A DNA stretch of 64,000 nucleotides from Nostocoides sp. HKS02 (GTDB taxonomy: Bacteria > Actinomycetota > Actinomycetes > Actinomycetales > Dermatophilaceae): contig NZ_CP046121.1 of assembly GCF_009707485.1 (NCBI RefSeq), positions 62,001 through 126,000 on the forward strand, read 5' to 3'. Position numbers and translations under genes: made by a program. This document shows positions 1-64,000 of the stretch, piece after piece (the first letter of the stretch is position 1; each line of letters begins with the position of its first letter). Below the pieces are notes generated by a model. That model saw only the letters and a program-made list of their open reading frames with translations, was not told the origin of the DNA and did not search any database.

Positions 1-1740
1 GGTCACGGGCTTGTAGTCGAGGCGCACCTCGTCCGCGAACGCCGGTCCGGCAGCGACCTCGGTCACCGGCGCGCGGTAGGCCATCGTGTGGCGCATGAAG
101 TTCACGTCGTCGCGCGCCTCGTAGTCCTCGCGGAAGTGGCCGCCACGCGACTCCTTGCGGGCCAGCGCGCCCAGCGTGATGACCTCGGCGAGCTCGATGA
201 GGAAGCCGAGCTCGATCGCCTCGAGGAGGTCGGTGTTGTAGCGCTTGCCCTTGTCCTGGACCACGACGCTGGCGTAGCGCTCCTTGAGCTCGTCGATGAC
301 ACCCAGCGCCTCCTTCATCGAGGCCTCCGTGCGGAACACCTGGACGTTGCGGTCCATGGTCTCCTGGAGGGCCTTGCGCAGGTCGGCCACCCGCTCGCCG
401 CTCTCGCGGGTGCGGATCGTCTCGACCATGCCCTCGACCAGCGCGGACGGGTTCTCGGGGAGGTCGACGTACGGCGCGGACGCGGCATACTCGGCGGCGG
501 CGATGCCGGCCCGACGGCCGAACACGTTGATGTCGAGCAGGCTGTTGGTGCCCAGCCGGTTCGAGCCGTGAACGCTCACGCACGCGACCTCACCGGCGGC
601 GTAGAGGCCGGGCACGACGTCGGTGTTGTTGCGCAGCACCTCGGTCTCGACGTTGGTGGGCACGCCACCCATCGCGTAGTGCGCGGTCGGGTAGACCGGG
701 ACCGGCTCGGTGTAGGGCTCGACACCGAGGTAGGTGCGCGCGAACTCGGTGATGTCGGGGAGCTTCGCGTCGATGTGGGCCGGCTCGAGGTGGGTGAGGT
801 CGAGCAGGACGTAGTCCTTGTTGGGGCCGGCGCCACGGCCCTCGCGGACCTCGTTGGCCATCGACCGGGCGACGATGTCGCGCGGCGCGAGGTCTTTGAT
901 CGTGGGGGCGTAGCGCTCCATGAAGCGCTCGCCGTCGGCGTTGCGCAGGATGCCGCCCTCACCTCGCGCCGCCTCGGACAGCAGGATGCCGAGCCCGGCC
1001 AGACCTGTCGGGTGGAACTGGAAGAACTCCATGTCCTCCAACGGGATGCCGCGGCGGAACGCGACGCCCATGCCGTCGCCCGTGAGCGTGTGGGCGTTGG
1101 ACGTGGTCTTGAAGACCTTGCCGGTGCCGCCGGTGGCGAAGATGACGGACTTGGCCTGGAAGACGTGGATCTCGCCGGTGGCCAGCTCATAGGCGACCAC
1201 ACCGGCGGCGTGCTCGACGCCGTCCGGGCCGGTGTTGAGCAGCAGGTCGAGGACGTAGAACTCGTTGTAGAACTCGACGCCCTGCTTGACGCAGTTCTGG
1301 TAGAGCGTCTGGAGGATCATGTGGCCGGTGCGGTCGGCGGCGAAGCACGACCGGCGCACGGCGGCCTCACCGTGGTTGCGGGTGTGGCCCCCGAACCGGC
1401 GCTGGTCGATCTTGCCTTCAGGCGTGCGGTTGAACGGCAGGCCCATCTTCTCGAGGTCGATCACGGCGTCGATCGCCTCACGGCACATGATCTCGGCGGC
1501 GTCCTGGTCGACGAGGTAGTCGCCGCCCTTGACGGTGTCGAAGGTGTGCCACTCCCAGTTGTCCTCCTCGACGTTGGCCAGGGCTGCGCACATGCCGCCC
1601 TGGGCCGCGCCGGTGTGGGAGCGAGTGGGGTAGAGCTTGGTCAGCACCGCGGTGCGGGTCCGCTTGGAGGACTCGAGCGCCGCGCGCATGCCGGCACCAC
1701 CGGCCCCGACGATCACGACGTCGTACTTGTGCGTCTGCAT
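1..1740 (-). CDS. sdhA: Succinate dehydrogenase flavoprotein subunit (3' end outside window)
   Basis: Oxidises succinate to fumarate in the TCA cycle and passes electrons through covalently bound FAD to the iron-sulfur subunit on the inner face of the membrane. An N-terminal dinucleotide-binding GAGGAG motif lies at residues 12-17. The TRSHTGA motif follows, whose His42 is the expected covalent FAD attachment site, and GGHTRNHGEAA and HPTGLAGLG are further family blocks. 580 codons are present against a usual length near 590, so only about ten C-terminal residues are missing. It follows sdhC and sdhD in the same direction; sdhB would be expected just beyond position 1. Confidence 0.96.
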   Translation of the reverse strand, partial: MQTHKYDVVIVGAGGAGMRAALESSKRTRTAVLTKLYPTRSHTGAAQGGMCAALANVEEDNWEWHTFDTVKGGDYLVDQDAAEIMCREAIDAVIDLEKMGLPFNRTPEGKIDQRRFGGHTRNHGEAAVRRSCFAADRTGHMILQTLYQNCVKQGVEFYNEFYVLDLLLNTGPDGVEHAAGVVAYELATGEIHVFQAKSVIFATGGTGKVFKTTSNAHTLTGDGMGVAFRRGIPLEDMEFFQFHPTGLAGLGILLSEAARGEGGILRNADGERFMERYAPTIKDLAPRDIVARSMANEVREGRGAGPNKDYVLLDLTHLEPAHIDAKLPDITEFARTYLGVEPYTEPVPVYPTAHYAMGGVPTNVETEVLRNNTDVVPGLYAAGEVACVSVHGSNRLGTNSLLDINVFGRRAGIAAAEYAASAPYVDLPENPSALVEGMVETIRTRESGERVADLRKALQETMDRNVQVFRTEASMKEALGVIDELKERYASVVVQDKGKRYNTDLLEAIELGFLIELAEVITLGALARKESRGGHFREDYEARDDVNFMRHTMAYRAPVTEVAAGPAFADEVRLDYKPVT

Positions 1741-1768
1741 CAGTATTGGTTCCTTTGGCGTTCCAGGG

Positions 1769-2233
1769 TCATCGGCTGCACACGGAGAGGGTGGAGTGCG
1801 GGTCGAGGCACGGGTCGAAGGTGAAGATCACCAGGGTGCCGAGCACCATGACCAGCAGTGCACTCGCGACCAGCAGGCCCTTGAGGATCCAGCGGGTGCG
1901 GTCCTTCTCGGTGTAGTCGTTGATGATCGTGCGGACGCCGTTGAAGCCGTGCAGCTCCGCGAGCCAGAGCATGAGGGTGTCCCAGACCTGCCAGAACGGG
2001 TTGGACCACTTCTGGCCGACGAAGGCGAAGTCGATCGCGTGGATGCCCTTGCCGAGCATGAGGTTGACGAACAGGTGGCCGAAGACGAGCACGAGCAGCA
2101 GCACGCCGCTGCCGCGCATGAAAACCCAGGACCAGAGCTCGAAGTTGCCGCGGGCCTTGGCGACCCGGCGGTAGCGGGACTTCGTGGTCGAGACCGCGTC
2201 GGGGCCCGCGTGGTAGTTGGTGGTGGTGCTCAT
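1769..2233 (-). CDS. sdhD: Succinate dehydrogenase membrane anchor subunit
   Basis: Hydrophobic anchor that, with SdhC, holds the catalytic SdhAB dimer on the membrane and helps form the quinone site. About 154 residues with three predicted membrane segments: one near GSGVLLLVLVFGHLFV, one around the Trp-rich WQVWDTLMLWLAELHG, and one near the C-terminus. HGFNGVR matches the His-x-x-x-Gly-x-Arg pattern of the anchor subunits, which usually bind haem. Two ATG codons occur in tandem; the second is preferred because a GAGGGG ribosome-binding site lies 6 nt before it. It sits between sdhC and sdhA with short gaps, which indicates one transcript. Confidence 0.9.
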   Translation of the reverse strand: MSTTTNYHAGPDAVSTTKSRYRRVAKARGNFELWSWVFMRGSGVLLLVLVFGHLFVNLMLGKGIHAIDFAFVGQKWSNPFWQVWDTLMLWLAELHGFNGVRTIINDYTEKDRTRWILKGLLVASALLVMVLGTLVIFTFDPCLDPHSTLSVCSR

Positions 2234-2243
2234 CATCGGCCCC

Positions 2244-2621: not shown

Positions 2622-2780
2622 TGCGCGTCCCTTTCAGAAGCAGAGATGTCACGGCTGGTGGTCGCGCGATGCGGCCCCGGCCGTTGTTCGCCCGTCAGGT
2701 TATCGGCCCCGGCTCGGCGTGCGTGCACGGGCCACCTGTGAGAAACCGAACAGGGCCGGTTACCCGCTGGTATGCCGGGG

Positions 2781-2825: not shown

Positions 2826-3953
2826 CGCGCGGGCGCCCAGGACGGCGCCGTAGTGGCCGAGCAGCTCGTCGGTGAGGCCGGACCAGCTGCGCGGCGCGAC
2901 CCGCACCCTGGCGACCGCACCCATCGCCTCGCGCTTGGTGCGGTCGCCGGCCAGGTGCGCGACGGCCTCACGCAGTGCCTCCGGGTCGTCGGGGTCGAAC
3001 AACAGCCCGGTGCGGGAGTGGTCGACGAGGTCCAGCGGACCACCGCGCGCGGGTGCCACCACCGGCAGCCCGGTGGCCGCGGCCTCCTGCAGGGTCTGGC
3101 CGAACGTCTCACGGGTGCCGGTGTGCGCGAACAGGTCGAACGCGGCATACGCCCTGGCCAGGTCGTCGCCCTCGCGGCGACCGAGGAACACGGCATCGAC
3201 GCCGGCGCCCGCGAGGGTCGCCGCGTCGTCCGCGCGGCTCGGGCCCTCGCCGACCACGACGACCCGGATGCCGCGCAGGCCCGCGAGCGAGGCCAGCCGG
3301 TGCAGCTCCTTCTCCGGTGCCAGCCGGCCGACGTAGCCGACCAGCACCTCGCCGTTCGGGGCGAGCGAGCGGCGCAGCGCCCGAGTTCCCGCATCGGCGC
3401 GCCAGCCCGGGTTGAAGAGGGTGGCGTCGACCCCGCGCGCCCACAGGGCGGTCCGCGGTATGCCGTGCGCGGCGAGCTCGGCGAGCGCCGCCGAGGAGGG
3501 CGCGAGGGTGCGGTCTGCCATGGCGTGGATGCGTCGCACCCAGCGCCAGGCCGCCCGCGAGGCGCCCCGGCCGACCGCTCCGCGCCCGTGCTGGCGCAGG
3601 TAGCTGGGCATGTCGGTCTGGTAGATCGCCACGCTGGGCAGCCCCAGCCGCCCGGCCGCGGACAGGGCGCCGGCACCGAGGACGAACGGCGACGCGACGT
3701 GGACGACGTCCGGACCGAACGCCGCGAGCACCGACTCGACCTCGCCCGACGGAAGGCCGACGGGGAACTGGCGGACGGGCACGGACGCAAGGCCGTGGAC
3801 GGCATACCCCGCATAGCTCGCCGGAGCGGGTCGCGGAGCGAGGATGACCGCCTCGTGCCCCTTGGCGCGCAGGCACTCGGCCACCCGGCAGACGCTGGTG
3901 GTCACCCCGTTGAGGTTGGGCAGGAACGACTCGGTGACGATCGCGACTCGCAC
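2814..3953 (-). CDS. GT4-family glycosyltransferase, mannosyltransferase-like
   Basis: A GT-B fold glycosyltransferase that probably transfers mannose from GDP-mannose to a lipid or glycan acceptor at the inner membrane face. The N-terminus VRVAIVTESFLPNLNGV is typical of the PimB/MgtA/GtfA-like group. GYVGRLAPEKELHR marks the sugar-nucleotide domain, and TRETFGQTLQEAAATGLPVV contains the Glu-x7-Glu donor motif. The start is GTG at 3951-3953, because upstream in-frame sequence is Arg/Pro-rich and unlike the family; about 379 residues result. It is divergent from a GDP-mannose-forming enzyme gene, supporting GDP-mannose as donor. The exact acceptor is unknown. Confidence 0.82.
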   Translation of the reverse strand: MRVAIVTESFLPNLNGVTTSVCRVAECLRAKGHEAVILAPRPAPASYAGYAVHGLASVPVRQFPVGLPSGEVESVLAAFGPDVVHVASPFVLGAGALSAAGRLGLPSVAIYQTDMPSYLRQHGRGAVGRGASRAAWRWVRRIHAMADRTLAPSSAALAELAAHGIPRTALWARGVDATLFNPGWRADAGTRALRRSLAPNGEVLVGYVGRLAPEKELHRLASLAGLRGIRVVVVGEGPSRADDAATLAGAGVDAVFLGRREGDDLARAYAAFDLFAHTGTRETFGQTLQEAAATGLPVVAPARGGPLDLVDHSRTGLLFDPDDPEALREAVAHLAGDRTKREAMGAVARVRVAPRSWSGLTDELLGHYGAVLGARALVA

Positions 3954-4051: not shown

Positions 4052-5143
4052 ATGTCCTCCGGCGCGTCGAACGAGCACTTCTGGGCCGTGATCCCCGCGG
4101 GCGGGCCGGGCACCCGGCTCTGGCCACTCTCGCGGGCGAGCTCGCCGAAGTTCCTCCACGACCTCACCGGGACCGGCCGGTCGCTGCTGCAGGCCACCTG
4201 GGACCGCCTCCTGCCACTGACCGGTCCGCGGGTGCTGGTCGTCACGGGCCGGGCCCACGAGGCGGCCGTGCGCGAGCAGCTGCCCGACCTGTCCGCCGAC
4301 CAGCTGCTCGCCGAACCCTCGCCCCGGGACTCGATGGCGGCCATCGGGTGGGCCGCGGCCGTCCTGGAGGCACGGGACCCTGATGCGGTGCTCGGCTCGT
4401 TCGCGGCGGACCACGTCATCGCCGACGAGCACGCGTTCCGGGAGTGCGTCACCGAGGCGACTGTCGCGGCCCAGGAGGGGTACCTCGTCACCATCGGCAT
4501 CGAGCCGACCCACCCGGCGACCGGCTTCGGCTACATCGAGATGGGGTCCGGGCTGGGCTCGGGTCCGACCCGCGCCGTCACGCAGTTCGTCGAGAAGCCG
4601 GACCGCGCTCGCGCCGTGGAGTACCTCGCGACCGGCCGGTTCCGGTGGAACGCCGGGATGTTCGTCGTGCGCGCCACCGTCCTGCTCGACCTGCTGGCCC
4701 AGTGGCACCCTGAGCTGGCGAGCGGCCTGCGTGCGCTCGCGGCCCACCCGGAGCGCCTGGACGAGGTGTGGCCCGGGCTGGAGAAGATCGCGATCGACCA
4801 CGCCGTGGCCGAGCCTTCCGCCGCTGCCGGGCGCGTGGCTGTGGTTCCGGGCACCTTCGGCTGGGACGACGTGGGTGACTTTGCCTCGCTGGGCACCCTG
4901 CTCCAGGACGCCGACGGTATGCCGGGTGTGCGGGTCCTCGGCGACGCCTCGGTGCTGCGCGTGGTCGACTCGACCGGCGTCGTCGTGCCGTCGGGCGGTC
5001 GCGTGGTCGCGGTAGTGGGTCTACAGGACGTGGTGGTCGTCGACACCCCCGACGCACTGCTCGTCACGACTCGCGAGCGCGCCCAGGACGTCAAGGCCGT
5101 GGTGGACGCGCTCCGCGCCGCGGGACGTGCCGACCTGCTCTGA
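4052..5143 (+). CDS. manC: Mannose-1-phosphate guanylyltransferase
   Basis: Makes GDP-mannose from mannose-1-phosphate and GTP in the cytoplasm, feeding lipomannan, PIM or polysaccharide synthesis. The nucleotidyltransferase signature GGPGTRLWPLSR is at residues 17-28, and FVEKPDRA, the sugar-phosphate binding block, is near residue 188. FRWNAGMFVVRA and GTFGWDDVGDF are further family blocks. At 363 residues it lacks the C-terminal isomerase domain of bifunctional ManC proteins. A TAGCGT box ends 6 nt before the ATG, so the mRNA is probably leaderless. The neighbouring divergent glycosyltransferase is a likely consumer of the product. Confidence 0.92.
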   Translation: MSSGASNEHFWAVIPAGGPGTRLWPLSRASSPKFLHDLTGTGRSLLQATWDRLLPLTGPRVLVVTGRAHEAAVREQLPDLSADQLLAEPSPRDSMAAIGWAAAVLEARDPDAVLGSFAADHVIADEHAFRECVTEATVAAQEGYLVTIGIEPTHPATGFGYIEMGSGLGSGPTRAVTQFVEKPDRARAVEYLATGRFRWNAGMFVVRATVLLDLLAQWHPELASGLRALAAHPERLDEVWPGLEKIAIDHAVAEPSAAAGRVAVVPGTFGWDDVGDFASLGTLLQDADGMPGVRVLGDASVLRVVDSTGVVVPSGGRVVAVVGLQDVVVVDTPDALLVTTRERAQDVKAVVDALRAAGRADLL

Positions 5144-5167: not shown

Positions 5168-6757
5168 TCAGGTGGCCAGGTCCCGCCGACGGAAGGCCGC
5201 CGCGGCGACGACGCCGACAGCCGCAGCCACCCCGACGAGAGCAAGGATTCCTGTGGCGTTCGCATCGCCGCCGGGCAGGCTGCCGAGGTGGTCGAACGGC
5301 GAGGCTCCCAGGGCCCAGTCCGGGAGCTTGAGCAGGGCGCCGAACTCGCCCAGCAGGACGAACCCGGCCAACAGTCCCCACGCCAGGCTCGACCAGCGCG
5401 GCAGCAACCCGAACAGGACCAGCGCGAGCGCCACGCAGACGAGCACGGCGGGGGCAGTGGCGAGCGCGGCGGGCAGGAGGTCACCGATGCCGGTCGAGGT
5501 CGATCCGCCTGCGGCAAGCCCGGCTGTGACACCGGCAACGGCGAGCAGCCACAGCGCACCGACCGCGGCGATGACGGCGTGGCCGGCCATCCAGCGCAGC
5601 CTGCTCACCTTCGTGGCGAGCACGACCTCGGCCCGTCCGGAGCTCTCCTCGGAGCGCAGCCGCAAGACCGTGGCGATGCCGTATGCGGCGGCCCCGATCG
5701 CGAGGAAACGCAGCTCCGCCCCGAAGAAGACATCGACCAGCGATCCCTGACCACCACTCATCTTGCGCAGCATGTCGGCGACGCCAGGGCTGGAGGCCAT
5801 CTGGTCGACCGAGCTGGCGACGCTGCCCACGACCAGTCCGAGCACGGCATACCCGATGGTCCAGCCCAGCAGGGAGGTGCGCTGGAGCCGCCAGGCCAGG
5901 CCCAGCGGGCTCCCCAGCCGAGCCGTGGCTCGTGCGGGCCCGGGGCGGGCCGCCCACAGACCCGAGCCCAGGTCGCGGCGGTGAAGCAGGAGATCGGCGA
6001 CGACGAGCAGCGCGGCGGTCACGGCGACGGCCGGCAGCAGCCACCACAGGCGGTTCGCCCCGAACGGGCTGACCTGTTCGGCCCAGCCGAGGAACGAGGC
6101 GTAGACGAGGTTCTGGCCGCGCCCGGTGGACGCGTCGCCCAGGGCGCGGACGACGAAGGCCAGACCAAGCGCCGCGAGGGCGATGCCGCCCGCCCCGCGG
6201 GTCGTCGAGGTGAGCTGGACCGCCACGGCCGTGATCCCCGTCATCACCAGGCCCGCCACGACCTCGACCGCGCCAAGCGCCACCGAACCGGTCGCGCCGA
6301 CTCCGGTGGGGAGCAGGCTCAGGGCGGAGAGCGCGCCGGTCGCCATGACGGTCAGCACGGCGAGGAGCACCGCGGACGCGAGTGCGGCGCGTCGCCCCAC
6401 CACGCCACCGGCGACCAGCTCGAACCGCCCCTCCTCCTCTTCGGTACGCGTGTGCCGGCGCACGATCGCAAAGGCGAGGAAGGCGGTGAACAGGCTGCCC
6501 ATCATCACCGTCTTGAGCACGCCGATCCCTTCGGCGGTGAGTGCGGGGAGCGGGCCGTAGAGGGCGGTGAGGGACGGGTTGTCGGCCATGACCCTCGCTC
6601 CGGCGGCGGCGTCGGCCGGGTTGGCGTACAGGCTGATCGTGGCCGCCATCGACCCGTATGCCGTGGCGGCTAGCACCAGGACGCAGGTCACGATGATCCA
6701 GCGGTCCCGTCGCCAGGCCAGCCGCAGCAGGGCTCCGGTGCCGGCGAAGGTGCTCAT
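5168..6757 (-). CDS. ABC exporter permease, polyketide-antibiotic-exporter type
   Basis: Membrane half of a two-gene ABC exporter. 529 residues with about twelve predicted helices in two similar halves, each opening with a W-R-L-type amphipathic stretch (LLRLAWRRDRWII and GLAWRLQRTSLLGW). This matches the COG3559 group annotated as exporters of polyketide antibiotics; the real substrate is unknown. Its ATG overlaps the stop of the ATPase gene by ATGA, so the two are translationally coupled. The cassette is divergent from a MarR-type regulator with an operator-like palindrome between them, which suggests inducible export of a toxic compound. Confidence 0.83.
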   Translation of the reverse strand: MSTFAGTGALLRLAWRRDRWIIVTCVLVLAATAYGSMAATISLYANPADAAAGARVMADNPSLTALYGPLPALTAEGIGVLKTVMMGSLFTAFLAFAIVRRHTRTEEEEGRFELVAGGVVGRRAALASAVLLAVLTVMATGALSALSLLPTGVGATGSVALGAVEVVAGLVMTGITAVAVQLTSTTRGAGGIALAALGLAFVVRALGDASTGRGQNLVYASFLGWAEQVSPFGANRLWWLLPAVAVTAALLVVADLLLHRRDLGSGLWAARPGPARATARLGSPLGLAWRLQRTSLLGWTIGYAVLGLVVGSVASSVDQMASSPGVADMLRKMSGGQGSLVDVFFGAELRFLAIGAAAYGIATVLRLRSEESSGRAEVVLATKVSRLRWMAGHAVIAAVGALWLLAVAGVTAGLAAGGSTSTGIGDLLPAALATAPAVLVCVALALVLFGLLPRWSSLAWGLLAGFVLLGEFGALLKLPDWALGASPFDHLGSLPGGDANATGILALVGVAAAVGVVAAAAFRRRDLAT

Positions 6758-8368: not shown

Positions 8369-9964
8369 ATGGCCGCCGATGTCCCCGCAGCACGCTCCGA
8401 GTCCGACCTCCCGATCAAGGCCGTGTATGCCGCGGACGACCTGGCCGGCTTCGACCCGGCGCTCCAGCTCGGGGCACCGGGGGAGTTCCCCTACACCCGG
8501 GGCGTCTACCCGAACATGTACACCGGGCGGCCGTGGACGATGCGGCAGTATGCCGGGTTCGGCACCGCCAAGGAGTCCAACGAGCGGTACCACGAGCTGG
8601 TGGCCAACGGCACCGGTGGACTGTCCGTCGCCTTCGACCTGCCGACCCAGATGGGGTACGACTCCGACGAGGCCATCGCGCACGGCGAGGTCGGCAAGGT
8701 CGGAGTGGCGATCGACTCCATCGACGACATGCGGACCCTCATGGGCGGGTTGCCGCTCGGTGAGATCTCGACCTCGATGACCATCAACGCGCCGGCCGCG
8801 ACACTGCTGCTGATGTACCAGCTGGTGGCCGAGGAGAACGGCGCGGACCCCTCGCGCCTGGCCGGCACCATCCAGAACGACGTGCTCAAGGAGTACATCG
8901 CCCGGGGCACCTACATCTATCCGCCCAAGGAGTCCCTGCGGCTGATCAGCGACATCTTCTCCTACTGCCACAAGGAGCTTCCGCGCTGGAACACCATCTC
9001 CATCAGCGGCTACCACATGGCCGAGGCCGGGGCGACCCCCGCCCAGGAGATTGCCTTCACCCTGGCCAACGCCAAGGAGTACGTGCGCACGGCGATCCGC
9101 GCGGGACTCGACGTGGACGACTTCGCGCCCCGGTTGTCGTTCTTCTTCGTCGCGCGCACGACCCTGCTGGAGGAGGTCGCCAAGTTCCGCGCGGCCCGGC
9201 GGATCTGGGCCCGGGTCATGCGCGAGGAGTTCGGCGCGAAGAACCCCAAGAGCCAGATGCTCCGGTTCCACACCCAGACCGCGGGCGTGCAGCTCACCGC
9301 CCAGCAGCCCGAGGTGAACCTCGTGCGGGTTGCCCTGCAGGGGCTCGGCGCGGTCCTGGGCGGCACCCAGTCACTGCACACCAACTCCTTCGACGAGGCC
9401 ATCGCGCTGCCGACTCAGAAGGCCGCCCGACTGGCCCTGCGCACCCAGCAGGTCATCGCCTACGAGACCGACGTGACGAAGACCGTCGACCCCTTCGCCG
9501 GGTCCTACGTCGTGGAGAGCATGACCGACGACGTCGAGGCTGCCGCCCTCGACCTCATGCAGGCCGTCGAGGACCGGGGTGGCGCCGTCGCCGCGATCGA
9601 ACAAGGCTTCCAGAAGTCCGAGATCGAGCGCTCGGCCTACCGCATCGCCCTCGAGATCGACCACGACGAGCGCACCATCGTCGGCGTGAACCGGTTCACG
9701 CTCGAGGAGGAGGAGCCCTACGAGCCGTTGCGGGTCGACCCGCAGATCGAGCTCGACCAGCGCGAACGGCTGGCGGCGCTGCGGGCGGAGCGCGACAACG
9801 CAGCGGTCGAGGCGGCGCTGGAGGCCGTGCGCGAGGCGGCCCGCGGCACCGAGAACCTGCTCTACCCGATGCGGGACGCGCTGCGGTTGCGCGCCACCGG
9901 CGGAGAGATCAGCCACGCACTGCGCGACGTCTGGGGGCTGTACGTCCCGCACGACACGTTCTGA
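8369..9964 (+). CDS. Acyl-CoA mutase large subunit (methylmalonyl-CoA mutase type, no B12 domain)
   Basis: Carbon-skeleton rearranging mutase acting on CoA esters such as methylmalonyl-, isobutyryl- or a hydroxyacyl-CoA. At 531 residues it has only the TIM-barrel substrate domain; there is no C-terminal His-containing cobalamin-binding domain, so it needs a separate small subunit, which is not next to it. [19 protein letters not shown] and [18 protein letters not shown] are the active-site blocks, and [18 protein letters not shown] and [14 protein letters not shown] are conserved. TRGVYPNMY replaces the usual YPTMY, so substrate choice cannot be assigned. The ATG at 8369 follows a TATCTT box. 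Confidence 0.85.
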
Positions 9965-10008: not shown

Positions 10009-11226
10009 ATGAGTGACAACCTCCTGCTGGACGACATCTGCGCCAGCATCACCGCGCTGGGACCCGAGCTCGTCGAGGTGCAGCGCGACCTGCACGCTCA
10101 CCCCGAGCTCTCCCGCGGCGAGTCCCGCACCACCCGCCTGGTCGCCGACCGGTTGCGCGCGGCCGGGGTGAGCGTCCGTGAGCTGCCCGGCACAGGCCTG
10201 GTGGCCGACCTGGGAGCCGAGTCCCCGGCGTACCGGGTGGCCTTGCGCGCGGACCTCGACGCGCTTCCGGTGGGGGAGCGCACCGGCCTGCCGTGGGCCT
10301 CGACCACCGACGGGATCTGCCACGCCTGCGGGCACGACGTCCACGTCGCCGCCGCGCTCGGGGCTGCGCTCGCCCTCAAGGAGCACGAGGACGGCCTGCG
10401 CGAACGCGGCCTCGCAGTGCGGCTGCTCTTCCAGCCCGCCGAGGAGGTCATCCCGGGCGGTGCGCTCGACGTCATCGCCGCGGGCGGGCTGCACGAGGTC
10501 GACGCGGTCTTCGCGGTGCACTGCGACCCCACCCTCGACGTCGGAACGGTGGGTCTGCGCGAAGGCGCGATCACCGCTGCCGCCGACCGCGTGACGGTGC
10601 ACCTGACCGGCCGCGGCGGCCACACCTCGAGGCCGCACCTCACCGAAGACCTCACCTTCGCGCTGGCCAAGGTCGTCACCGAGCTTCCGGCGGTGCTCTC
10701 GCGGCGGCTCGACCCCCGCACCGCCTTCGCCCTGGTCTGGGGCGAGGTCCACGCAGGCCAGGCCGCCAACGTCATCCCGTCCATCGGCACCGCGGCGGGC
10801 ACCCTGCGCATGCTCGACGCCGCCGCCTGGGCCACGATCGGCCCCCTGCTCGCCGAGTCCGTGCAGCACGTCGTGGCGCCGTATGCCGTGCAGGCCGTCC
10901 TCGAGCACGTCCAGGGCGTGCCGCCGGTGGTCAACGCGGTCGAGGCGGTGGAGGTGCTCAGGCAGGCAGCGACCGGGGCCGGGCTCACCCCCGTCGGCAC
11001 CGTCCAGTCGCTCGGCGGCGAGGACTTCGCGTGGTACCTCCAGAAGGTGCCGGGCGCGATGGCGCGCCTGGGCACCCGCACCCCCGGCGGGCACACCTTC
11101 GACCTGCACCAGGGCGACCTCGTCGTCGACGAGACCGCCGTGACCTGGGGCGCCCGGCTGCTGGCTGGTGCCGCCGTCGCGGGTGTCGTCAAGGCAGCGC
11201 CGGAGTCGACAGTCGCGGGTTGGTAA
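10009..11226 (+). CDS. M20-family amidohydrolase / metallopeptidase
   Basis: Cytoplasmic binuclear metal hydrolase of the M20D group, which removes acyl or amino-acid groups from N-acyl amino acids or small peptides. 405 residues. HAHPELS near residue 30 is the usual N-terminal block. RADLDALPV and CHACGHDVHVA carry metal ligands, and FQPAEEVIPGGA holds the catalytic Glu pair. GRGGHTSRPH marks the dimerisation (lid) domain and GGEDFAWYLQKVPG the C-terminal metal site. TAGAGT lies 10 nt before the ATG. Its physiological substrate cannot be deduced. It ends just before the promoter region of the nucleoside uptake operon. Confidence 0.88.
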   Translation: MSDNLLLDDICASITALGPELVEVQRDLHAHPELSRGESRTTRLVADRLRAAGVSVRELPGTGLVADLGAESPAYRVALRADLDALPVGERTGLPWASTTDGICHACGHDVHVAAALGAALALKEHEDGLRERGLAVRLLFQPAEEVIPGGALDVIAAGGLHEVDAVFAVHCDPTLDVGTVGLREGAITAAADRVTVHLTGRGGHTSRPHLTEDLTFALAKVVTELPAVLSRRLDPRTAFALVWGEVHAGQAANVIPSIGTAAGTLRMLDAAAWATIGPLLAESVQHVVAPYAVQAVLEHVQGVPPVVNAVEAVEVLRQAATGAGLTPVGTVQSLGGEDFAWYLQKVPGAMARLGTRTPGGHTFDLHQGDLVVDETAVTWGARLLAGAAVAGVVKAAPESTVAGW

Positions 11227-49870: not shown

Positions 49871-49885
49871 ACCGGTGAGTATTGC

Positions 49886-49907: not shown

Positions 49908-49977
49908 GTAACTGACGGTATGCCGGGCGGTCGGGCGATCCTCGCGCCGCACCTACGACAACGAGAGTGGGAGCACG

Positions 49978-53488: not shown

Positions 53489-55363
53489 CTAGCCGAGCTG
53501 CTCGTCGACGAAACACCATCGCCAGGACTCGCCGGGCTCGAAACTGCGCATGACCGGGTGGGCCGACTCGCGGAAGTGGGCCGAGGCGTGTCGCTGCGGT
53601 GAGGAGTCGCAACAGCCGACGTGGCCGCAGTCGAGGCAGAGCCGCAGGTGCACCCAGGTCGTGCCATCACGCAGGCACTCCTCGCACCCGTGCGGGCTCG
53701 TGGGTGCCACGAACCGGTTGTGGTGGGCGGCCAGGTGCTCGCACTCGTCCCCGGCGCGCTCTGGCGGCAGCATGGGCTCGTCGCGCAGCGCCTCGGTGCG
53801 GTCGTCGATGCGGTCGAGCATGGATTCCTCGATGTCGAGCTGGGCCATCACGTGGGCGAGTACCTCTTGGTCCACGATCCCCGCACCGCGGATGCGCAGC
53901 AACTCCGAACGTTCCGCCTGGAGCATGATCAGCCGCATCCGTCGGTACGTCTCGCTGGGCGTCTCGGCGCCGGCGCGCCCCTGACCGAGCCGCTCCCAGA
54001 CGATGTTGGTGCGGTTCTCGGCCCGGTCGCGCAGGGTCTGGATGACGGTGGGGTCGGACTGGTCGCAGTCCTCCAGGGCCGCGATCCCGGCCGCCACGGA
54101 CGCCTGGAGGATGGTCGCCTCCTGCAGGGCGTCCTCGCGCGGGTCGGGCCCGCGCACCCGCAGCCGGCGCGCCAGCCACGGCAGCGTCGTGCCCTGAACC
54201 ACGAGGCTCGCCACGGTGACGAACATGGCCAGCCACACGAGCATGCCGCGCTGCGGGGTGTCGGCGGGGAGGGTCAGCGCAGCGGCCAGCGTGACCACGC
54301 CCCGCATGCCCGCCCAGGAGAGGATCGCGTTGTGCGCGCCCGACTGGCTCTCGCGAGTCGTCCGGTGCTTCACCAGCTGCTCCAGCCAGCGGACCGGGAA
54401 CAGGTAGACCGGGCGGAGCACCGTCACCGCGAGGAAGACCGCGAGCGACACCCCGAGGACTCGAGGCCAGCCGAGTCCGGACCGCGCCACGTCGGCGACG
54501 ATCCGGCGCATCTGCAGCCCGATGAGCAGGAAGACCGCGTGCTCGAGCAGGAACTGCACGGACGTCCAGTTGATCCGCTCGCTGAGCCGCGACGAGGCCG
54601 TCTGCACCATGGGTGACTTGTGGCCGAGGAGCAGCCCCGCTACGACGACCGCAAGCACCCCGGACCCGTGGAAGTGCTCGGTGGGCAGGTAGGCGAGGTA
54701 CGGGACGATGAACGACAGCGAGGTGTCGAGCGCGGGGTCGGTCAGCTGCCGGCGCAGCAGCCCGATGACGAGTGCCACGAGCACCCCGAACCCGAGACCG
54801 AGGACCACGGCCGTCGCGAAGTCGAACACCACCGAGCCGAACGACACGGCCCCGACGGTCGTGAACGCGACGATCGCCGTGCGCAGGGAGACCAGCGCGG
54901 TGGCGTCGTTGACGAGGGACTCGCCCTCGAGGATGGTGACGACGCGGCGCGGCAGGCCGATCCGTCGCGCCACCGCCGACGCGGCGACGGCATCCGGGGG
55001 TGCCACGACCGCGCCGAGCGCGAAGGCGACGGCGAAGGGCACCGGCAGCAGCCACCAGGTGACCAACCCGACGCCAGCCGCGGTGAACAGCACCAAGCCC
55101 ACGGACAGCGACAGGATCGCCGAGGTGTTGGCCCGGAAGTCCACGAGCGAGGTGCGGACGGCCGCGGCATACAGCAGGGGCGGGAGCAGCCCGATGAGCA
55201 CCACCTGCGGGGTGAGCTGGGGCTCCTTGATGAACGGGACGTAGGACGCGACGATGCCCACGACGATCAGCACCAGCGGCGCGGGCGCACCGATCTTGCG
55301 AGCGAAGCCGGCGACGATGATGACGGTCGCCACGAGCACGACCAGGGTCAGGGCGAGTTCCAC
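53489..55363 (-). CDS. CPA1 sodium/proton antiporter with C-terminal UBP-type zinc finger
   Basis: 624 residues. Residues 1-415 form the CPA1/NhaP exchanger with about twelve helices. APPDAVAASAVARRIGLPRR and LEGESLVNDATALVSLR, the latter with the ion-binding Asn-Asp, are hallmark segments. WAGMRGVVTLAAALTLP is a further conserved helix. A helical region follows, and residues about 545-620 form a ubiquitin-protease-type zinc finger: CEHLAAHHNRF, then CEECLRDG, CLDCGHVGCCDSS and HASAHFRESAHPV. GTG at 55363 has an AGGA site. The finger probably senses or binds a partner; nothing nearby suggests ubiquitin-like modification. Confidence 0.88.
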   Translation of the reverse strand: MELALTLVVLVATVIIVAGFARKIGAPAPLVLIVVGIVASYVPFIKEPQLTPQVVLIGLLPPLLYAAAVRTSLVDFRANTSAILSLSVGLVLFTAAGVGLVTWWLLPVPFAVAFALGAVVAPPDAVAASAVARRIGLPRRVVTILEGESLVNDATALVSLRTAIVAFTTVGAVSFGSVVFDFATAVVLGLGFGVLVALVIGLLRRQLTDPALDTSLSFIVPYLAYLPTEHFHGSGVLAVVVAGLLLGHKSPMVQTASSRLSERINWTSVQFLLEHAVFLLIGLQMRRIVADVARSGLGWPRVLGVSLAVFLAVTVLRPVYLFPVRWLEQLVKHRTTRESQSGAHNAILSWAGMRGVVTLAAALTLPADTPQRGMLVWLAMFVTVASLVVQGTTLPWLARRLRVRGPDPREDALQEATILQASVAAGIAALEDCDQSDPTVIQTLRDRAENRTNIVWERLGQGRAGAETPSETYRRMRLIMLQAERSELLRIRGAGIVDQEVLAHVMAQLDIEESMLDRIDDRTEALRDEPMLPPERAGDECEHLAAHHNRFVAPTSPHGCEECLRDGTTWVHLRLCLDCGHVGCCDSSPQRHASAHFRESAHPVMRSFEPGESWRWCFVDEQLG

Positions 55364-55414: not shown

Positions 55415-57112
55415 TCAGCCGAGCTCGCCCAGGACCGCCTCGCGCAGGGTGTCGAGACCGACTCCGCCGATGTCGAGGGCGCGGCGGTGGAAGTCCTTGA
55501 GCGAGAACGCGTCGCCCTCACGGTCGCGCACCTGGTCGCGCAGCTGCATCCACAGGCGCTCGCCGATCTTGTACGACGGTGCCTGGCCGGGCCAGCCGAG
55601 GTAGCGGTCGAGCTCGAAGCGCAGCCACGCCTCGCCCTGGTTGGCGTGGGCGGTGAGGTACTGCCAGGCCTTGTCGTAGGTCCACTCGCCGCCGCCGACC
55701 TCCGCAGGCGCCTCGAAGCCGCAGTGCACGCCGATGTCGATGACGACCCGCGCGGCCCGCAGCGACTGGCTGTCGAGCAGCCCCAGCTTGTTGCCCGGGT
55801 CGTCCATGTAGCCGAGCTCGTCCATGAGGCGCTCGGCATACAACGCCCATCCTTCGCCGTGCCCCGAGGTCCACGCGGCCATCCGGCGCCACGAGTTGAG
55901 CAGCTCGGACCGGAACACCGTCTGGGCGACCTGGAGGTGATGGCCGGGCACCCCCTCGTGGTAGACCGTGGTCAGCTCCTTCCAAGTGCCGAACTCCGTC
56001 ACGCCCTTGGGGACCGACCACCACATCCGCCCCGGTCGGGAGAAGTCCTCGCTGGGGCCGGTGTAGTAGATGCCGCCGGTCTGCGTGGGCGCGATGAGGC
56101 ACTCGATGGTGCGCACCGGGTCGGGGATGTCGAAGTGCGTCCCGGCGAGGTTGGTGATCACCTCGTCGGCCTTGGTCTGCATCCACGCCTTGAGCTCGTC
56201 GGTGCCGTGCAGCTGGTATGCCGGGTCGGCCTCGAGCGCGGCAATGGCCTCCTTGACGGTGCTGCCGGGCGCGATCTGGTCGGCTACCCGCGCCATCTCG
56301 GCAGTGATTCGCTCGACCTCCTGCTGACCCCAGGCGTAGGTCTCCTCCAGGTCCACGCTCGCGCCGAGGAAGGCGCGCGAGAGCAGCTGGTACCGGTCGC
56401 GACCGCACGCGTCGGCCTCGGGGGCCTGCGGCAGCAGCTCGGACGACAACCAGCCACGCAGGTCGGCGTAGGCCGCGCGCGCCGACTCCACGGCGGTCGT
56501 GAGCTCGACCCGGGTGCCGTCGGCGAGGTCGCCGTCACCGGCCTTGGCGCCCTCGAGCAGGTTCGCGAAGTAGCCGTCGGCGGCGGTGAGGTCGGTGCAC
56601 TGCGTGGCGCAGGCCTCGACCTGGCGCCGCGGTGCGACGTTGCCCTTGGCTGCTGCGCTGCGCAGGCTCTCCTTCCACTGCTCGAGAGCGGCCGGCACCT
56701 TCGCCAGGCGTCGGGCGATCACGCCCCAGTCCTCGTCGGTGTCGGTGGACATCAGGTCGAAGCAGCCGCGGATCTCCTGCAGCGGTGAGGCGATCACGTT
56801 GAGGGACATCTCGTCCAGACCCGCCTGGTGGGTCTCCTCGGCCAGGCCGAGCCGCTCGCGCATGGCCGCGATCGTCACCCGGTCGATGTCGTCCGCGGGC
56901 TCGGCCTGGTCGAGCGCCGCGAGCGTGCGGCGCCTCAGCTCGGCATGTGCCGCGTGACCCTGCGGCGAGAAGTCGTCGAGGTCCTCCTCGTGGCCGGGGA
57001 TCCCCAGGTAGGTCGCCGTGATCGGGCTGAGGACCACGAGCTCGGCGAGGAAGGAGTCGGCGATGCGGTCGACGTCCGTGGTGGGACGTGCGGTGGAGGT
57101 CTCGGTAGTCAC
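55415..57112 (-). CDS. DUF885 family protein, putative metallopeptidase
   Basis: 565 residues. ELTTVYHEGVPGHHLQVAQ contains a His-Glu-x-x-x-His-like zinc motif, and AWTSGHGEGWALYAERL the third ligand region, both invariant in DUF885. The family is related to thermolysin-type gluzincins and is thought to be peptidases, but substrates are not known. No signal peptide is evident, so it is cytoplasmic. GTG at 57112 follows a TACGTT box by 7 nt, so the transcript is probably leaderless. It is divergent from the MOSC gene and adjacent to the antiporter gene in the same direction. Confidence 0.87.
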   Translation of the reverse strand: MTTETSTARPTTDVDRIADSFLAELVVLSPITATYLGIPGHEEDLDDFSPQGHAAHAELRRRTLAALDQAEPADDIDRVTIAAMRERLGLAEETHQAGLDEMSLNVIASPLQEIRGCFDLMSTDTDEDWGVIARRLAKVPAALEQWKESLRSAAAKGNVAPRRQVEACATQCTDLTAADGYFANLLEGAKAGDGDLADGTRVELTTAVESARAAYADLRGWLSSELLPQAPEADACGRDRYQLLSRAFLGASVDLEETYAWGQQEVERITAEMARVADQIAPGSTVKEAIAALEADPAYQLHGTDELKAWMQTKADEVITNLAGTHFDIPDPVRTIECLIAPTQTGGIYYTGPSEDFSRPGRMWWSVPKGVTEFGTWKELTTVYHEGVPGHHLQVAQTVFRSELLNSWRRMAAWTSGHGEGWALYAERLMDELGYMDDPGNKLGLLDSQSLRAARVVIDIGVHCGFEAPAEVGGGEWTYDKAWQYLTAHANQGEAWLRFELDRYLGWPGQAPSYKIGERLWMQLRDQVRDREGDAFSLKDFHRRALDIGGVGLDTLREAVLGELG

Positions 57113-57198: not shown

Positions 57199-57889
57199 AT
57201 GGCCGCCCAGCTTGTTGTCCCTCAACGTCGGTACCCCGGAGCCCAACGCCGCGAAGCCGGTGGGTGTGACCGGCATACACAAGCGTCCGGTGGGTACCGC
57301 GGTGCTGCGGGCGCCGGGGCCCAAGCACGGCGGCCTCGGGAGCGGGGTCGAAGGGGACTTCCTGGGCGACACCCGGCACCACGGCGGGGACACCCAGGCG
57401 GTCTACGCGTTCGCCCGCGAGGAGCTGGACTGGTGGGCCGGCGAGCTCGGCCGGGAGCTGCCCAGCGGCACCTTCGGCGAGAACCTCACGACCCTTGGCC
57501 TCGACGTGGACGGCTCCCTGATCGGCGAGCGGTGGGCGGTGGGCGACACGGTGGTGCTCGAGGTGTGTGGGCCGCGGATCCCGTGCGCCACGTTCGCGGC
57601 CCGGATGGGGGAGCGCGGCTGGGTCAAGCGGTTCAGTGCCGTGGGTCGCACGGGCGCCTACCTGTCCGTGGTCACGGGTGGCACGGTGCGCCAGGGCGAT
57701 GCGATCACGGTCGTCTCGCGGCCCGACCACGAGATCACGGTGCCCGACACGTTCCGGGCGTTCATGGGCGAGGTCGAAGCGGCGCAACGCGTGCTCGCTG
57801 CGGGCTGTCTGGTCGAGTCCGAAGCCGACGAGCTGCGCGAGCTGGTGGCTCGGCGCGGCTCGGGTGGCGGCGCAGAGCTGGAGTCCTGA
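57199..57889 (+). CDS. MOSC-domain protein (YiiM-like), 5' frameshift in this sequence
   Basis: About 229 residues after repair. TFGENLTTLGLDVDGSLIGE and VLEVCGPRIPCATFAARMG contain the MOSC core with the conserved Cys that binds sulfur or molybdenum cofactor. TGAYLSVVTGGTVRQGDAI is the following block. ATG at 57199 follows TAGGCT by 7 nt. Its frame would read MAAQLLSLNVGTPEP, but an extra T in CTTGTT at 57211-57216 breaks it after four codons; otherwise TTG at 57212 would be the start. YiiM-type proteins detoxify N-hydroxylated compounds; the role here is not proven. Confidence 0.82.
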
Positions 57890-57980: not shown

Positions 57981-58220
57981 TCAGCGGGGGAAGGCCGAAG
58001 CGCGCCAGCCGCCCGGGCCGGGAGCCACCGATCGGCGCACGGAGCGTCCGCGGGACGCCCACTGCGAGGTATGCCGCGCAGCCGGCTCGCGCGCGCCCGC
58101 AGCGTCCGCGGACACTGCTGACAGCACCGCGAGCAGTGCGGCGACCTCCTCAGGGGTGGCATCACCGCGCACGAGCCGCAGCGGCGGCCGCTGGGCCGCG
58201 TCGTCGGTCTCGGGGGTCAC
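57981..58220 (-). CDS. accE: Acyl-CoA carboxylase epsilon subunit
   Basis: 79 residues. [20 protein letters not shown] near the N-terminus is the diagnostic block of the short actinobacterial epsilon subunits (PF13822), which bind the carboxyltransferase and activate the complex. The C-terminal half is basic and ends WRASAFPR, the usual Trp-rich finish. GTG at 58218-58220 overlaps the AccD5 stop by GTGA, so the two are translationally coupled. A long hairpin follows within 10 bp, ending the operon. Confidence 0.9.
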
Positions 58221-59905: not shown

Positions 59906-60691
59906 ATGCGCGAACCGCTCGACCGTGAGGCATTGCACGAGGCGTTGGTCACGTCCGGGTCGCCGTGGACCGGCATCGACGTCCACCCGAGGCTCGGTTC
60001 GACCAACGTCGAGGCGGCGCGACTCGCGCAGCCCTGGCGAGTGGTCGTCACCGACCACCAGGAGGCGGGCCGAGGCCGCCTCGGGCGCTCGTGGGAGACC
60101 CCGGCGAACACCTCGGTCACCCTTTCGGTGCTGCTCCCGGCGCCCGACGAGGCGCGGGGGTGGATGCCGCTGGTCACCGGCCTGGCCGTCCTGCGGGGAA
60201 TCGCGGAGGTCACCGGCCTGCGCGCGGGCCTGAAGTGGCCCAACGACGTGCTGCTCGCGGCCGACGACGACCGCAAGGTGTGCGGCGTCCTGTGCGAGCT
60301 GCAGCCCCAGGGCGTGGTCGTGGGCCTCGGCGTCAACGTCGACCAGACCCGCGACGAGCTGCCAGTCGACACCGCGACCTCGCTGCGGCTTGCCGGGGCG
60401 CAGGACGTGCGCCGGGAGGACCTCGTCGTCGCGATCCTGCGGCACCTCGCGGTGCTGCACGGTGACCTGGTCCGTGGTGGCACGGCCCGCGCGGGCGCCC
60501 AGGCGGCATACCGCGAGGCATGCCTCACGACCGGACGTGAGGTCGACCTGCATGCCGCCGACGGCACGGTCCGGCGCGTGCACGCCGTGGGCATCGATGC
60601 GCAAGGGCGGCTCGTGGTCGCCTCGGGCGGGGCGGAGTATGCCGTGGCCGCCGGCGACGTCGTCCACGCCCGCCGGGCCCCGCAAGGGTGA
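59906..60691 (+). CDS. birA: Biotin-[acetyl-CoA carboxylase] ligase
   Basis: Attaches biotin to the carrier Lys of the acyl-CoA carboxylase alpha subunit via biotinyl-AMP. 261 residues; no N-terminal helix-turn-helix, so it is a monofunctional ligase and not a repressor. STNVEAARL is the first substrate block, [18 protein letters not shown] the biotin/ATP loop with Gly-Arg-Gly-Arg, [10 protein letters not shown] the catalytic Lys-Trp-Pro-Asn-Asp, and [10 protein letters not shown] the adenylate block. A C-terminal SH3-like domain ends at the stop. It is divergent from accD5 with only 24 bp between starts. Confidence 0.95.
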
Positions 60692-61923: not shown

Positions 61924-62711
61924 GCGAGCCACTGGTCAGGATCGAACGTCACGGCGTTGGCGGCCACGTCGCCGAGCTCGTGCTCGACCGGCCGGAAGCG
62001 ATGAATGCCGTGTCGACCGCCATGGCGCGGGCGCTCGGCCAGGCGACGAGCGAGCTCGCGGCGGACCCCACGGTTCGCGCCGTGGTCGTGACCTCCAGCA
62101 GCCCCAAGGCGTTCTGCGTCGGCGCGGACCTCAAGGAGCGCAACGCCCTCACCGACGAGGAGCTGCGCGCGCAGCGCCCGGTGGCCCAGGCGGCATACCG
62201 GGGGGTTCTCGAGCTGCCCGTCCCGGTGGTGGCGGCGGTCGAGGGTTACGCGCTCGGAGGCGGCTTCGAGATCGCGCTGTCGTGCGATCTCGCCGTCTGC
62301 GGTGCGGCCGCCGTGGTCGGACTGCCCGAGGTGAGCGTCGGCGTGATTCCGGGCGGAGGCGGCACCCAGCTGCTCACCCGGCGGGTCGGGTGGTCGCGAG
62401 CGGCCCGGATGGTCTTCACGGCCGAGCGGTACGACGCCGAGCAGGCCCGGCAGCTCGGCGTGGTCGACGAGGTCGTCGCAGCGGGTGCCGCGCGAGAGCG
62501 GGCGTTCGAGATCGCCGAGCGCATCGCCGCGAACTCACCCGTCGGGGTGCGCAACGCGAAGGCTGCCATGCGAGAGGGTTTCGACACCGATCTCGACGCC
62601 GGACTGCGCATCGAGGACCGGTACTGGGCAGCCACGGCCTTCTCGGCCGACCGTGCCGAGGGCGTCGCCGCTTTCAATCAAAAGCGCAAACCGGTGTGGC
62701 CCGGTCGCTGA
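61920..62711 (+). CDS. Enoyl-CoA hydratase/isomerase family protein
   Basis: Crotonase-fold enzyme of beta-oxidation or a related CoA pathway. 263 residues. AFCVGADLKE forms the first oxyanion-hole strand and VEGYALGGGFEIALSCDLAV the second. GLPEVSVGVIPGGGGTQLLT provides the catalytic Glu region (Pro-Glu), and NSPVGVRNAKAAM the C-terminal block. Its ATG lies inside the cyclase stop codon (ATGA), so cAMP production and this enzyme are coupled at translation. The specific acyl-CoA is unknown. Confidence 0.92.
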   Translation: MSEPLVRIERHGVGGHVAELVLDRPEAMNAVSTAMARALGQATSELAADPTVRAVVVTSSSPKAFCVGADLKERNALTDEELRAQRPVAQAAYRGVLELPVPVVAAVEGYALGGGFEIALSCDLAVCGAAAVVGLPEVSVGVIPGGGGTQLLTRRVGWSRAARMVFTAERYDAEQARQLGVVDEVVAAGAARERAFEIAERIAANSPVGVRNAKAAMREGFDTDLDAGLRIEDRYWAATAFSADRAEGVAAFNQKRKPVWPGR

Positions 62712-62740
62712 GGGGGTCCCTGTTGCCTACGATCACCACC

Positions 62741-63418
62741 ATGACCCGTGTGCTCCTCGCTGAGGACGACCCTGCCATCTCCGAGCCGCTGGCCCGCGCG
62801 CTGCGCCGCGAGGGGTACGACGTCGACGTGCGAGCTGACGGGAAGGCCGCGCTCGAGGCGTCGTCGGAGAATCCCGACCTCGTGGTCCTCGACCTCGGCC
62901 TGCCGTTCGTCGACGGGCTCGAGGTGTGTCGTCGGATCCGCGCCGAGGGCCGCACCGTCCCCGTGCTCATCCTCACCGCTCGGGCCGACGAGGTCGACAC
63001 CGTCGTGGGCCTCGACGCCGGAGCCGACGACTACGTCACCAAGCCGTTCCGGCTCGCCGAGCTGCTGGCCCGGGTCCGCGCCCTCCTGCGACGCACCCCC
63101 ACCGATGCCGTCACGGACAAGGAGCTCGTCCGCATCGACCCCGAGGGCCGCCGCGCGTGGTTCCGCGACGAGGAGCTCCAGCTCACCGCCAAGGAGTTCG
63201 ACCTGCTGCGGGTGCTGGTGCGCGAGCAGGGCAAGGTGGTCTCGCGCGAGCAGCTCATGCGCGAGATCTGGGAGACCGCCTGGTTCGGCTCCACCAAGAC
63301 GCTCGACATGCACATCTCCGTGCTGCGTCGGAAGCTGGGCGACGACGCGGCACAGCCCCGCTACATCGCGACCGTCCGCGGTGTCGGCTTCCGCTTCGAG
63401 CGCGTCGACGGGGCCTGA
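62741..63418 (+). CDS. OmpR/PhoB-family response regulator
   Basis: 225 residues. The receiver domain has acidic residues LAEDD, phospho-Asp51 in LVVLDLGLPF and Lys in VTKPFRLAE. The winged-helix output has LTAKEFDLLRVLVREQGKVV, MHISVLRRKLGDDAAQP and TVRGVGFRFE. A TACGAT box ends 7 nt before the ATG, indicating a leaderless message. The sensor kinase gene follows at 9 bp. The target genes are unknown. Confidence 0.93.
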   Translation: MTRVLLAEDDPAISEPLARALRREGYDVDVRADGKAALEASSENPDLVVLDLGLPFVDGLEVCRRIRAEGRTVPVLILTARADEVDTVVGLDAGADDYVTKPFRLAELLARVRALLRRTPTDAVTDKELVRIDPEGRRAWFRDEELQLTAKEFDLLRVLVREQGKVVSREQLMREIWETAWFGSTKTLDMHISVLRRKLGDDAAQPRYIATVRGVGFRFERVDGA

Positions 63419-63427
63419 GAACGGCCC

Positions 63428-64000
63428 ATGCGTCAACAACTCATCCGGTCGACCGTCCTCGCGGTCCTCCTCGCCATCGCCATCACCATGGTGCCCGTGT
63501 GCCTCAGCCTCTGGCGGGCCAGCAACCACGGGGGCGGCCTCCTCGAGCAGTGGGTGCACGAGGGCATGACCCCCACGATCTCCCTCCAGCTGGTGGGGCT
63601 CCTGCTCGGGCTTGCGGTCCTCGCGCTCGTGGCCGGCGTCGTGGTCGCGATCGGCCAGGCGCGGCGACTGGCGACGCCGATGACCCAGCTCGCCGACCGC
63701 GCGGAGCGGCTCGGGGCCGGCGAGTCGCGCATCCAGCCCCTGCACTCGGGGATCGCCGAGCTCGACAAGGTCTCCGAGGTGCTCGCCCGCAGCGCCCAGA
63801 GGCTGACCAAGTCGCTGGCGTCGGAGCGCGACTTCGCCGCCGACGCCTCGCACCAGCTGCGCACGCCGCTCACGGCGTTGTTGATGCGCCTGGAGGAGAT
63901 CGCCGTCACCGACGACCTCGAGGTGGTCCAGGAGGAAGCCAGCATCGCGATCGCCCAGGTCGAGCGGCTCACCCGCGTCGTCGACGACCTGATGTCACGG
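63428..64000 (+). CDS. Sensor histidine kinase (3' part outside window)
   Basis: 191 codons are present and the gene runs off the right edge. An N-terminal helix (VLAVLLAIAITMVPVCLSLW), a short extracellular loop and a second helix (LVGLLLGLAVLALVAGVVVA) lead to a HAMP linker (LATPMTQLADRAERLGAGES). The HisKA box FAADASHQLRTPLTALLMRL contains the phospho-His. The ATPase domain is missing from the window. It is paired with the regulator 9 bp upstream. Confidence 0.92.
   Translation, partial: MRQQLIRSTVLAVLLAIAITMVPVCLSLWRASNHGGGLLEQWVHEGMTPTISLQLVGLLLGLAVLALVAGVVVAIGQARRLATPMTQLADRAERLGAGESRIQPLHSGIAELDKVSEVLARSAQRLTKSLASERDFAADASHQLRTPLTALLMRLEEIAVTDDLEVVQEEASIAIAQVERLTRVVDDLMSR

Follow-up and report, generated by a model that had tools for sequence, protein, structure and literature searches.

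A frequent, strand-balanced octamer with lineage-specific dialects as a candidate DNA uptake sequence of the Dermatophilaceae

The octamer GTATGCCG is heavily over-represented in a 64,000-nucleotide stretch of the Nostocoides sp. HKS02 genome (contig NZ_CP046121.1, positions 62001-126000; this whole stretch is called the window here). From sequence comparisons, and with a probability of roughly 0.7, we propose that it is the DNA uptake sequence of a naturally transformable actinobacterial family, working together with a Tad/Flp pilus.

An exact count in the window gave 49 octamers (26 forward, 23 reverse) and 54 copies of the heptamer GTATGCC (28/26 by strand), in agreement with the first-pass annotation of this DNA, which had estimated about 49 octamers and about 54 heptamers in balanced orientation (28 versus 26). 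Dinucleotide shuffles of the window contained a mean of 1.22 octamers, with 5 as the largest number in 100 shuffles, and a mean of 2.29 heptamers. The z-score of GTATGCCG was the highest among window octamers with at least 5 copies under Markov models of orders 1 to 4, which bears out, within the window, the excess that the first-pass annotation had proposed to check in this way. The maximal-order model did not place GTATGCCG among its top listed octamers, since the excess is already carried by shorter words within it (TATGCC, 58 versus 31.8). The word is non-palindromic, differing from its own reverse complement; 49 of the 65 TATGC occurrences scanned lie inside it, and the flanks add little information. 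The whole genome (3.48 Mb, one contig) carries 1273 forward and 1264 reverse copies, one per 1.37 kb, versus 94 and 65 copies of the reversed-word control GCCGTATG, and no orientation bias was observed in 144 kb (55 versus 49). The control GCCGTATG is itself fairly frequent, at 150 to 299 copies per strand, in genomes G013, G014, G025, G031, G048, G120, G121, and G123.

Codon shuffling indicates that the excess acts on DNA and not on protein, as had been suggested at first sight. Synonymous codons were permuted among the called open reading frames (ORFs), which keeps the proteins and the codon usage; for the window genome, 143 kb, including 106 kb called coding, were shuffled 200 times. The coding part held 78 copies of GTATGCCG, versus a shuffled mean of 3.5 and a maximum of 9, and the explanation by dipeptides or composition, named earlier as the one that could overturn the claim, thus fails. 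The 78 copies (42 sense, 36 antisense) occupy all six codon phases, in keeping with the earlier remark that every phase is used, and the commonest phase reads X-Tyr-Ala. Outside the called coding sequence, 37.9 kb hold another 25 copies; the coding/non-coding split is approximate, since ORFs were picked by codon-position G+C. Within 52 selected window ORFs, 22 of the 44 TAT codons fall inside the motif, next to 253 TAC codons, and the TAC version of the word, GTACGCCG, falls short of what codon shuffles of the window genome give (10 versus 17.5).

The rare codons said to be forced by the motif were recovered at 8425 and 8548 (Tyr TAT) and at 19204 (Val GTA), whereas the reading of Ile ATA at 20564 and 57271 hinges on the choice between overlapping ORFs. 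Three copies had been placed between genes: the one at 46703 lies outside the selected ORFs, but the copy reported at 12494 is a heptamer and lies at 12496, and that at 49866 is a heptamer only. The exact GTATGCCG matches in the window are listed below, with their placement relative to the selected ORFs.

483..490, minus strand, site outside selected ORFs
2770..2777, plus strand, site outside selected ORFs
3143..3150, minus strand, site
3458..3465, plus strand, site
3800..3807, minus strand, site
4917..4924, plus strand, site
5845..5852, minus strand, site
6656..6663, plus strand, site
8425..8432, plus strand, site read as Tyr TAT-Ala GCC in a methylmalonyl-CoA mutase-like ORF
8548..8555, plus strand, site read as Tyr TAT-Ala GCC in a methylmalonyl-CoA mutase-like ORF
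10881..10888, plus strand, site
14604..14611, minus strand, site
16558..16565, plus strand, site
16771..16778, minus strand, site
18548..18555, minus strand, site
19204..19211, plus strand, site read as Val GTA-Cys-Arg in ORF 19018-19755
20564..20571, minus strand, site
21363..21370, plus strand, site in adenosine deaminase
22049..22056, minus strand, site in adenosine deaminase
23285..23292, plus strand, site
25354..25361, plus strand, site
25919..25926, plus strand, site
26773..26780, minus strand, site
30825..30832, minus strand, site
30976..30983, plus strand, site
32243..32250, minus strand, site
32891..32898, plus strand, site
35132..35139, plus strand, site
35431..35438, minus strand, site
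38900..38907, minus strand, site
39736..39743, plus strand, site
41398..41405, plus strand, site
42845..42852, minus strand, site
43731..43738, plus strand, site
44909..44916, plus strand, site in a tryptophan 2,3-dioxygenase-like ORF
45285..45292, minus strand, site
46384..46391, plus strand, site
46703..46710, minus strand, site outside selected ORFs
49918..49925, plus strand, site outside selected ORFs
51178..51185, plus strand, site outside selected ORFs
51302..51309, minus strand, site
55165..55172, minus strand, site
55834..55841, minus strand, site
56216..56223, plus strand, site
57271..57278, minus strand, site
58069..58076, plus strand, site outside selected ORFs
60504..60511, minus strand, site
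60637..60644, plus strand, site
62191..62198, minus strand, site outside selected ORFs

Site conservation further supported an action on DNA. Across 12 pairs of related genomes, each aligned both ways, which overlap and all derive from one 20-kb comEC region, so that the figures are not independent, the exact octamer was kept at 176 of 250 aligned sites versus 31% of control octamers matched for A/T number. Base identity in the same region was 0.909 inside the sites versus 0.793 in the 32-base flanks; this comparison, close to the one with flanking synonymous sites proposed in the first-pass annotation, came out in favor of the sites. Some orthologous sites are re-spelled in place: 5 of 13 GTATGCCG sites of G014 read GTACGCCG in G057, and none did so among 10 sites for G026 versus G025 or 6 for G026 versus G031, all of these being small numbers.

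GTATGCCG is a trait of one family, probably the Dermatophilaceae, with the window genome probably in the genus Pedococcus (GTDB sense), a placement drawn from the named hits of a window protein and partly from taxonomy. In a survey of 98 genomes, all 11 of the window's genus were rich in the word (625-3986 copies) and the family showed a bimodal distribution. Not one of 38 genomes belonging to the order's other families had more than 167 copies. Counts in 186 family genomes (53 genera) ranged from 7 to 4724, with single poor members within rich genera (G122, G171, G192). Among 20 named genomes, seven of the eight taken as family members were rich, the exception being Phycicoccus sp. CSK15P-2, and none of the 12 named actinobacteria outside the family rose above 202 copies. 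The word has so far been seen only in this family. No word was found in G012, G016, G018, G019, G020, G023, G024, G038, G045, G050, G054, and G058, or in G122 and G171, the samples of G045, G016, G122, and G171 spanning only about 14 to 40 kb and that of G024 holding 4 kb called coding.

Many GTATGCCG-poor relatives bear one-base variants of the word, such as GGATGCCG, GTACGCCG, and GTATGACG. These dialects were found by de novo octamer counts in 57 comEC regions and larger samples, and were tested against 60 codon shuffles each. GGATGCCG exceeded the shuffled expectation in G026 (47 versus 12.2), G036 (44 versus 7.4), and G011 (26 versus 7.5), and GTATGACG did so in G037 (27 versus 2.4), GTATGCGG in G030 (15 versus 1.4), and GAATGCCG in one 20-kb region of G022 (8 versus 0.5). 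For GTACGCCG, the values were 47 versus 7.8 in G049, 53 versus 10.9 in G057, 36 versus 11.6 in G033, and 21 versus 8.9 in G034. Codon preference (Tyr TAC, Ala GCC) is another possible source of this variant; its copies occupy all codon phases in G049 and G057, and the dialect is weaker in G033 because the copies there lie mostly in the codon-preference phase. It was not clear in G029 (3 versus 1.5, with only 11 kb called coding) or G020 (12 versus 6.4). Kribbella rubisoli carries 19 copies of GTACGCCG versus 3.5 expected in 21 kb, which may be codon preference.

Whole-genome counts of GGATGCCG in 35 genomes gave 3816 copies in G026, 3838 in G127, 3949 in G036, 2195 in G053, 1336 in G011, and 1210 in G218, and 389 to 1027 in the remaining 29. 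Within genus g2, which holds Phycicoccus, G011 and G218 were the only 2 of 12 genomes above this background. Two dialects occur together in G053 (1217 copies of GTATGCCG and 2195 of GGATGCCG). Word states require 16 changes on a LeuS and ComEC tree of 57 genomes, the ComEC of G044 being omitted from the trees. A second word, CGAAGGGG, unrelated to GTATGCCG, characterizes genera g38 (16 of 16 genomes) and g37 (3 of 3), the members of which lack the GTATGCCG series (G046, G047, G145-G159, G175, G176). These 19 genomes hold 1198 to 3180 strand-balanced copies, versus 72 to 148 of the reversed control, and 38 other genomes tested hold at most 297.

Candidate uptake genes occur in most family genomes. 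comEC (PF03772) was detected in 57 of 60 family genomes; in the window genome it is split into two frames (1517076-1517881), which may reflect a sequencing or assembly error or a real break or recent loss. A tad-1-like tadA was found, whole or in part, in 52 of the 60 genomes, and in 166 of 186 in a wider survey, where no more than 9 candidates were scored for each genome and a tadA may have been overlooked in some. Further genomes of this survey showed partial or double tadA matches. The Tad locus of the window genome (genome positions 276000-295900) encodes TadA, two T2SSF proteins, a 64-residue pilin-like protein with no Pfam match, TadE, TadF (assigned from a sub-cut-off TadE match), and a TadG-like protein, with an FtsK/FHA protein adjoining on the opposite strand. 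An FtsK-like N-terminus was found in 20 of 32 Tad loci; for most of the 32, the sequence covered only about 1 kb upstream. Two further T2SSE loci of the window genome are Tad-like. PilT (TIGR01420) passed the cut-off in 1 of 60 genomes (G035), with strong sub-cut-off or split matches in G015 and G055, and the type IVa pilus typical of the Neisseriaceae was not recovered as a family trait in this search.

In Micrococcus luteus, transformation is described as requiring the tad-1 cluster, which has the same gene order as the Tad locus here (PMC4322843), and mutation of an adjacent FtsK/SpoIIIE-type gene is among three reported to lower transformability at least 1000-fold (PMC8467076). When compared with four M. 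luteus pilin N-termini (PMC6370729), TadE matched best with the family TadE and TadF with the family TadF; none of 300 shuffles was as good, and some cross matches also passed. Since gene order, the FtsK neighbor, and the TadE/TadF N-termini agree, we infer that the family Tad locus is the counterpart of M. luteus tad-1.

The pilus motor gene is itself a target of mobile elements. Four genomes carry inserts within tadA: G004 (one of about 71 kb), G009 (two, of about 4.6 kb and about 74 kb), G017 (one of about 11 kb), and G038 (one of about 35 kb). The gene is broken either at codons taken to be the Walker A motif or past codon 255. Among the junction ORFs chosen, a large serine recombinase (PF00239 and PF07508) lies at one junction in each of these four genomes, that of G009 belonging to the smaller insert. 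A type I restriction-like gene (ResIII, EcoEI_R_C) was observed near a junction in the inserts of G009 and G038. In G030, G036, and G057, tadC or what follows is cut off; the stretch there encodes terminase- and portal-like proteins in G057 and an integrase-core protein in G030, and for G036 two ORFs yielded no informative result. In other bacteria, mobile elements are described as using insertion into competence genes as a tactic (PMC4774983). The word is depleted in these elements, as expected of uptake sequences: the sampled inserts carry 7 words versus 33 at the genome rate in G004 (58 kb) and 4 versus 11 in G009 (58 kb), and 1 word versus 12.4 in G017 (11 kb). The G038 insert (35 kb, in a word-less genome; 0 versus 0.5) is uninformative.

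In the mechanism that we propose, a receptor on a DNA-uptake pilus would prefer word-bearing DNA, which would then be handed to ComEA/ComEC and recombined. Because word-bearing fragments would enter and recombine more often, copies would be conserved and would accumulate on both strands, even against codon preference. One-base dialects, and the exchange of the word for another in one lineage group, could result from drift of the receptor specificity; after loss of uptake, the words would decay. The transformability of the family, the role of the Tad locus as the uptake pilus, the reading of the word by a receptor, and the mode of accumulation are all inferred here from genomes.

Several observations weigh against this proposal. 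tadA is absent from 6 of 12 word-less versus 2 of 43 word-bearing genomes (Fisher 7e-4; 55 genomes, kinship ignored, with the ambiguous G027 and G031 left out and G046 and G047 coded as word-bearing for CGAAGGGG), but the co-loss was not significant in phylogenetically independent pairs. All seven tad genes but no word were found in G018, G020, and G045, and likewise in G012, where tadA has two stops; G019, also without a word, lacks only a detectable tadG. Word-poor genera keep tadA (g2, 12 of 12; g3, 4 of 4; g11, 3 of 3; g10, 2 of 2; g9, 2 of 2), and 4 of 14 genomes at least 90% complete and without tadA bear a word (G046, G056, G163, G201). None of six Tad-locus proteins tracks the dialect once tadA divergence is removed; the receptor may be coded outside the Tad locus. 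Part of the word shortage in the inserts could be compositional, as their G+C (0.65-0.67) is below that of most sampled host regions. Spacing is slightly more even than random (coefficient of variation 0.84 versus 0.97; 99 gaps, P 0.056), and no opposed octamer pairs within 100 bases were present among the 49 window sites. A heptamer at 49866-49872 faces the octamer at 49918, and inverted pairs at gene ends acting as terminators, a trait of the DNA uptake sequence (DUS), were not found in the window.

A word that is genome-wide, on both strands, in all codon phases, and conserved could also be the binding site of an intracellular DNA-organizing or chromosome-maintenance protein (nucleoid or HIP1-like), kept by selection on DNA. 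Such a sequence-specific protein could switch its preferred word as well, and the negative receptor search in the tad locus fits it. We nevertheless consider this unlikely: the word is non-palindromic, unlike HIP1, and lacks orientation bias over the 144 kb; its scattered presence and within-genus variation (G122, G171, G192) would be odd for an essential chromosomal function, and CGAAGGGG replaces it in two genera. Quite improbable, in our estimate, is a methylation target or a product of methylation-coupled mutation or repair, e.g., C-to-T change of GTACGCCG, even though the deficit of GTACGCCG noted above looks as if sites had been re-spelled and the window genome has one PF01555 match. The C5 methylases (PF00145) occur in 27 of 46 genomes tested and not in the window genome, PF01555 occurs in 18 of 46, and the word-rich G005, G013, G017, G031, G032, and G044 have neither. 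Dialects changed at other positions, and CGAAGGGG, presumably could not stem from one deamination. C5 and N4/N6 methylases were accordingly rejected as a shared cause, as these families are not common to word-rich genomes; the test covered PF00145 and PF01555 in 46 of the 60 family genomes.

A recombination hotspot (Chi-like) or segregation (KOPS-like) signal would likewise be a frequent octamer within genes. Signals of these kinds are usually skewed along the replichore, whereas GTATGCCG shows no skew (26/23 in the window and 55/49 in 144 kb, not mapped against oriC/dif), and genus-level dialects and complete losses argue further against such a role, which we hold to be less probable still. 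Ordinary codon or composition bias, to which the harmless dipeptide of the commonest phase would be congenial, receives virtually no credence: it was rejected by the codon-shuffle test, the 200 shuffles never approaching the observed number, and by the copies outside called coding sequence and in six phases.

The closest known systems share some features with GTATGCCG and differ in others. The DUS of the Neisseriaceae is likewise a short non-palindromic word with thousands of copies, dialects following phylogeny, and relatives with none, and one genome bears two dialects (S. muelleri there, G053 here), as described in PMC3630211. The over-represented words there are 10-mers (PMC3630211), in contrast to the 8-base word here. 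The systems differ further in phylum, in the pilus (type IVa there, Tad/Flp here), in the lack of close inverted octamer pairs in the window, and in the wholly different word of two genera, and the present system is known from sequence alone. The uptake signal sequence (USS) of the Pasteurellaceae has a similar density and is non-palindromic, but the word is unrelated, the pilus different, and the bacteria Gram-negative. HIP1 of cyanobacteria is a dense genome-wide octamer, but a palindromic one, and we know of no HIP1 dialect series comparable to that of GTATGCCG. The first-pass annotation had likened the density to HIP1 or uptake sequences; the latter appear to fit better because the word is non-palindromic, relatives carry one-base dialects, and competence genes are present. 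The M. luteus Tad/Flp competence pilus resembles the locus here in the order tadA-tadB-tadC-...-tadE/F-tadG, the FtsK/SpoIIIE-type ATPase neighbor, and the TadE/TadF N-termini (PMC4322843, PMC8467076). The term "uptake sequence" does not occur in the main text of PMC4322843, nor "uptake signal" in PMC8467076. The USS receptor was long unknown and only predicted, according to PMC12616744.

A literature search, mostly outside subscription papers, returned no paper naming the octamer together with its complement as whole words; the matches listed for GTATGCC looked unrelated, and no report of an actinobacterial uptake sequence was among the matches listed. Sequence-specific DNA uptake is known mainly from the Neisseriaceae and Pasteurellaceae. 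We think it reasonably likely that the present case is the first uptake-sequence system outside the Gram-negative DUS and USS, combining a Gram-positive host, a Tad/Flp pilus, the GTATGCCG dialects, the second word CGAAGGGG, and elements that defend themselves via the pilus motor gene. If so, it would be a third, independent case with another pilus, and self-recognition by a DNA word would evolve repeatedly. Natural transformation would be predicted in dozens of genera, and the family would offer many independent specificity switches from which to learn how a receptor reads DNA.

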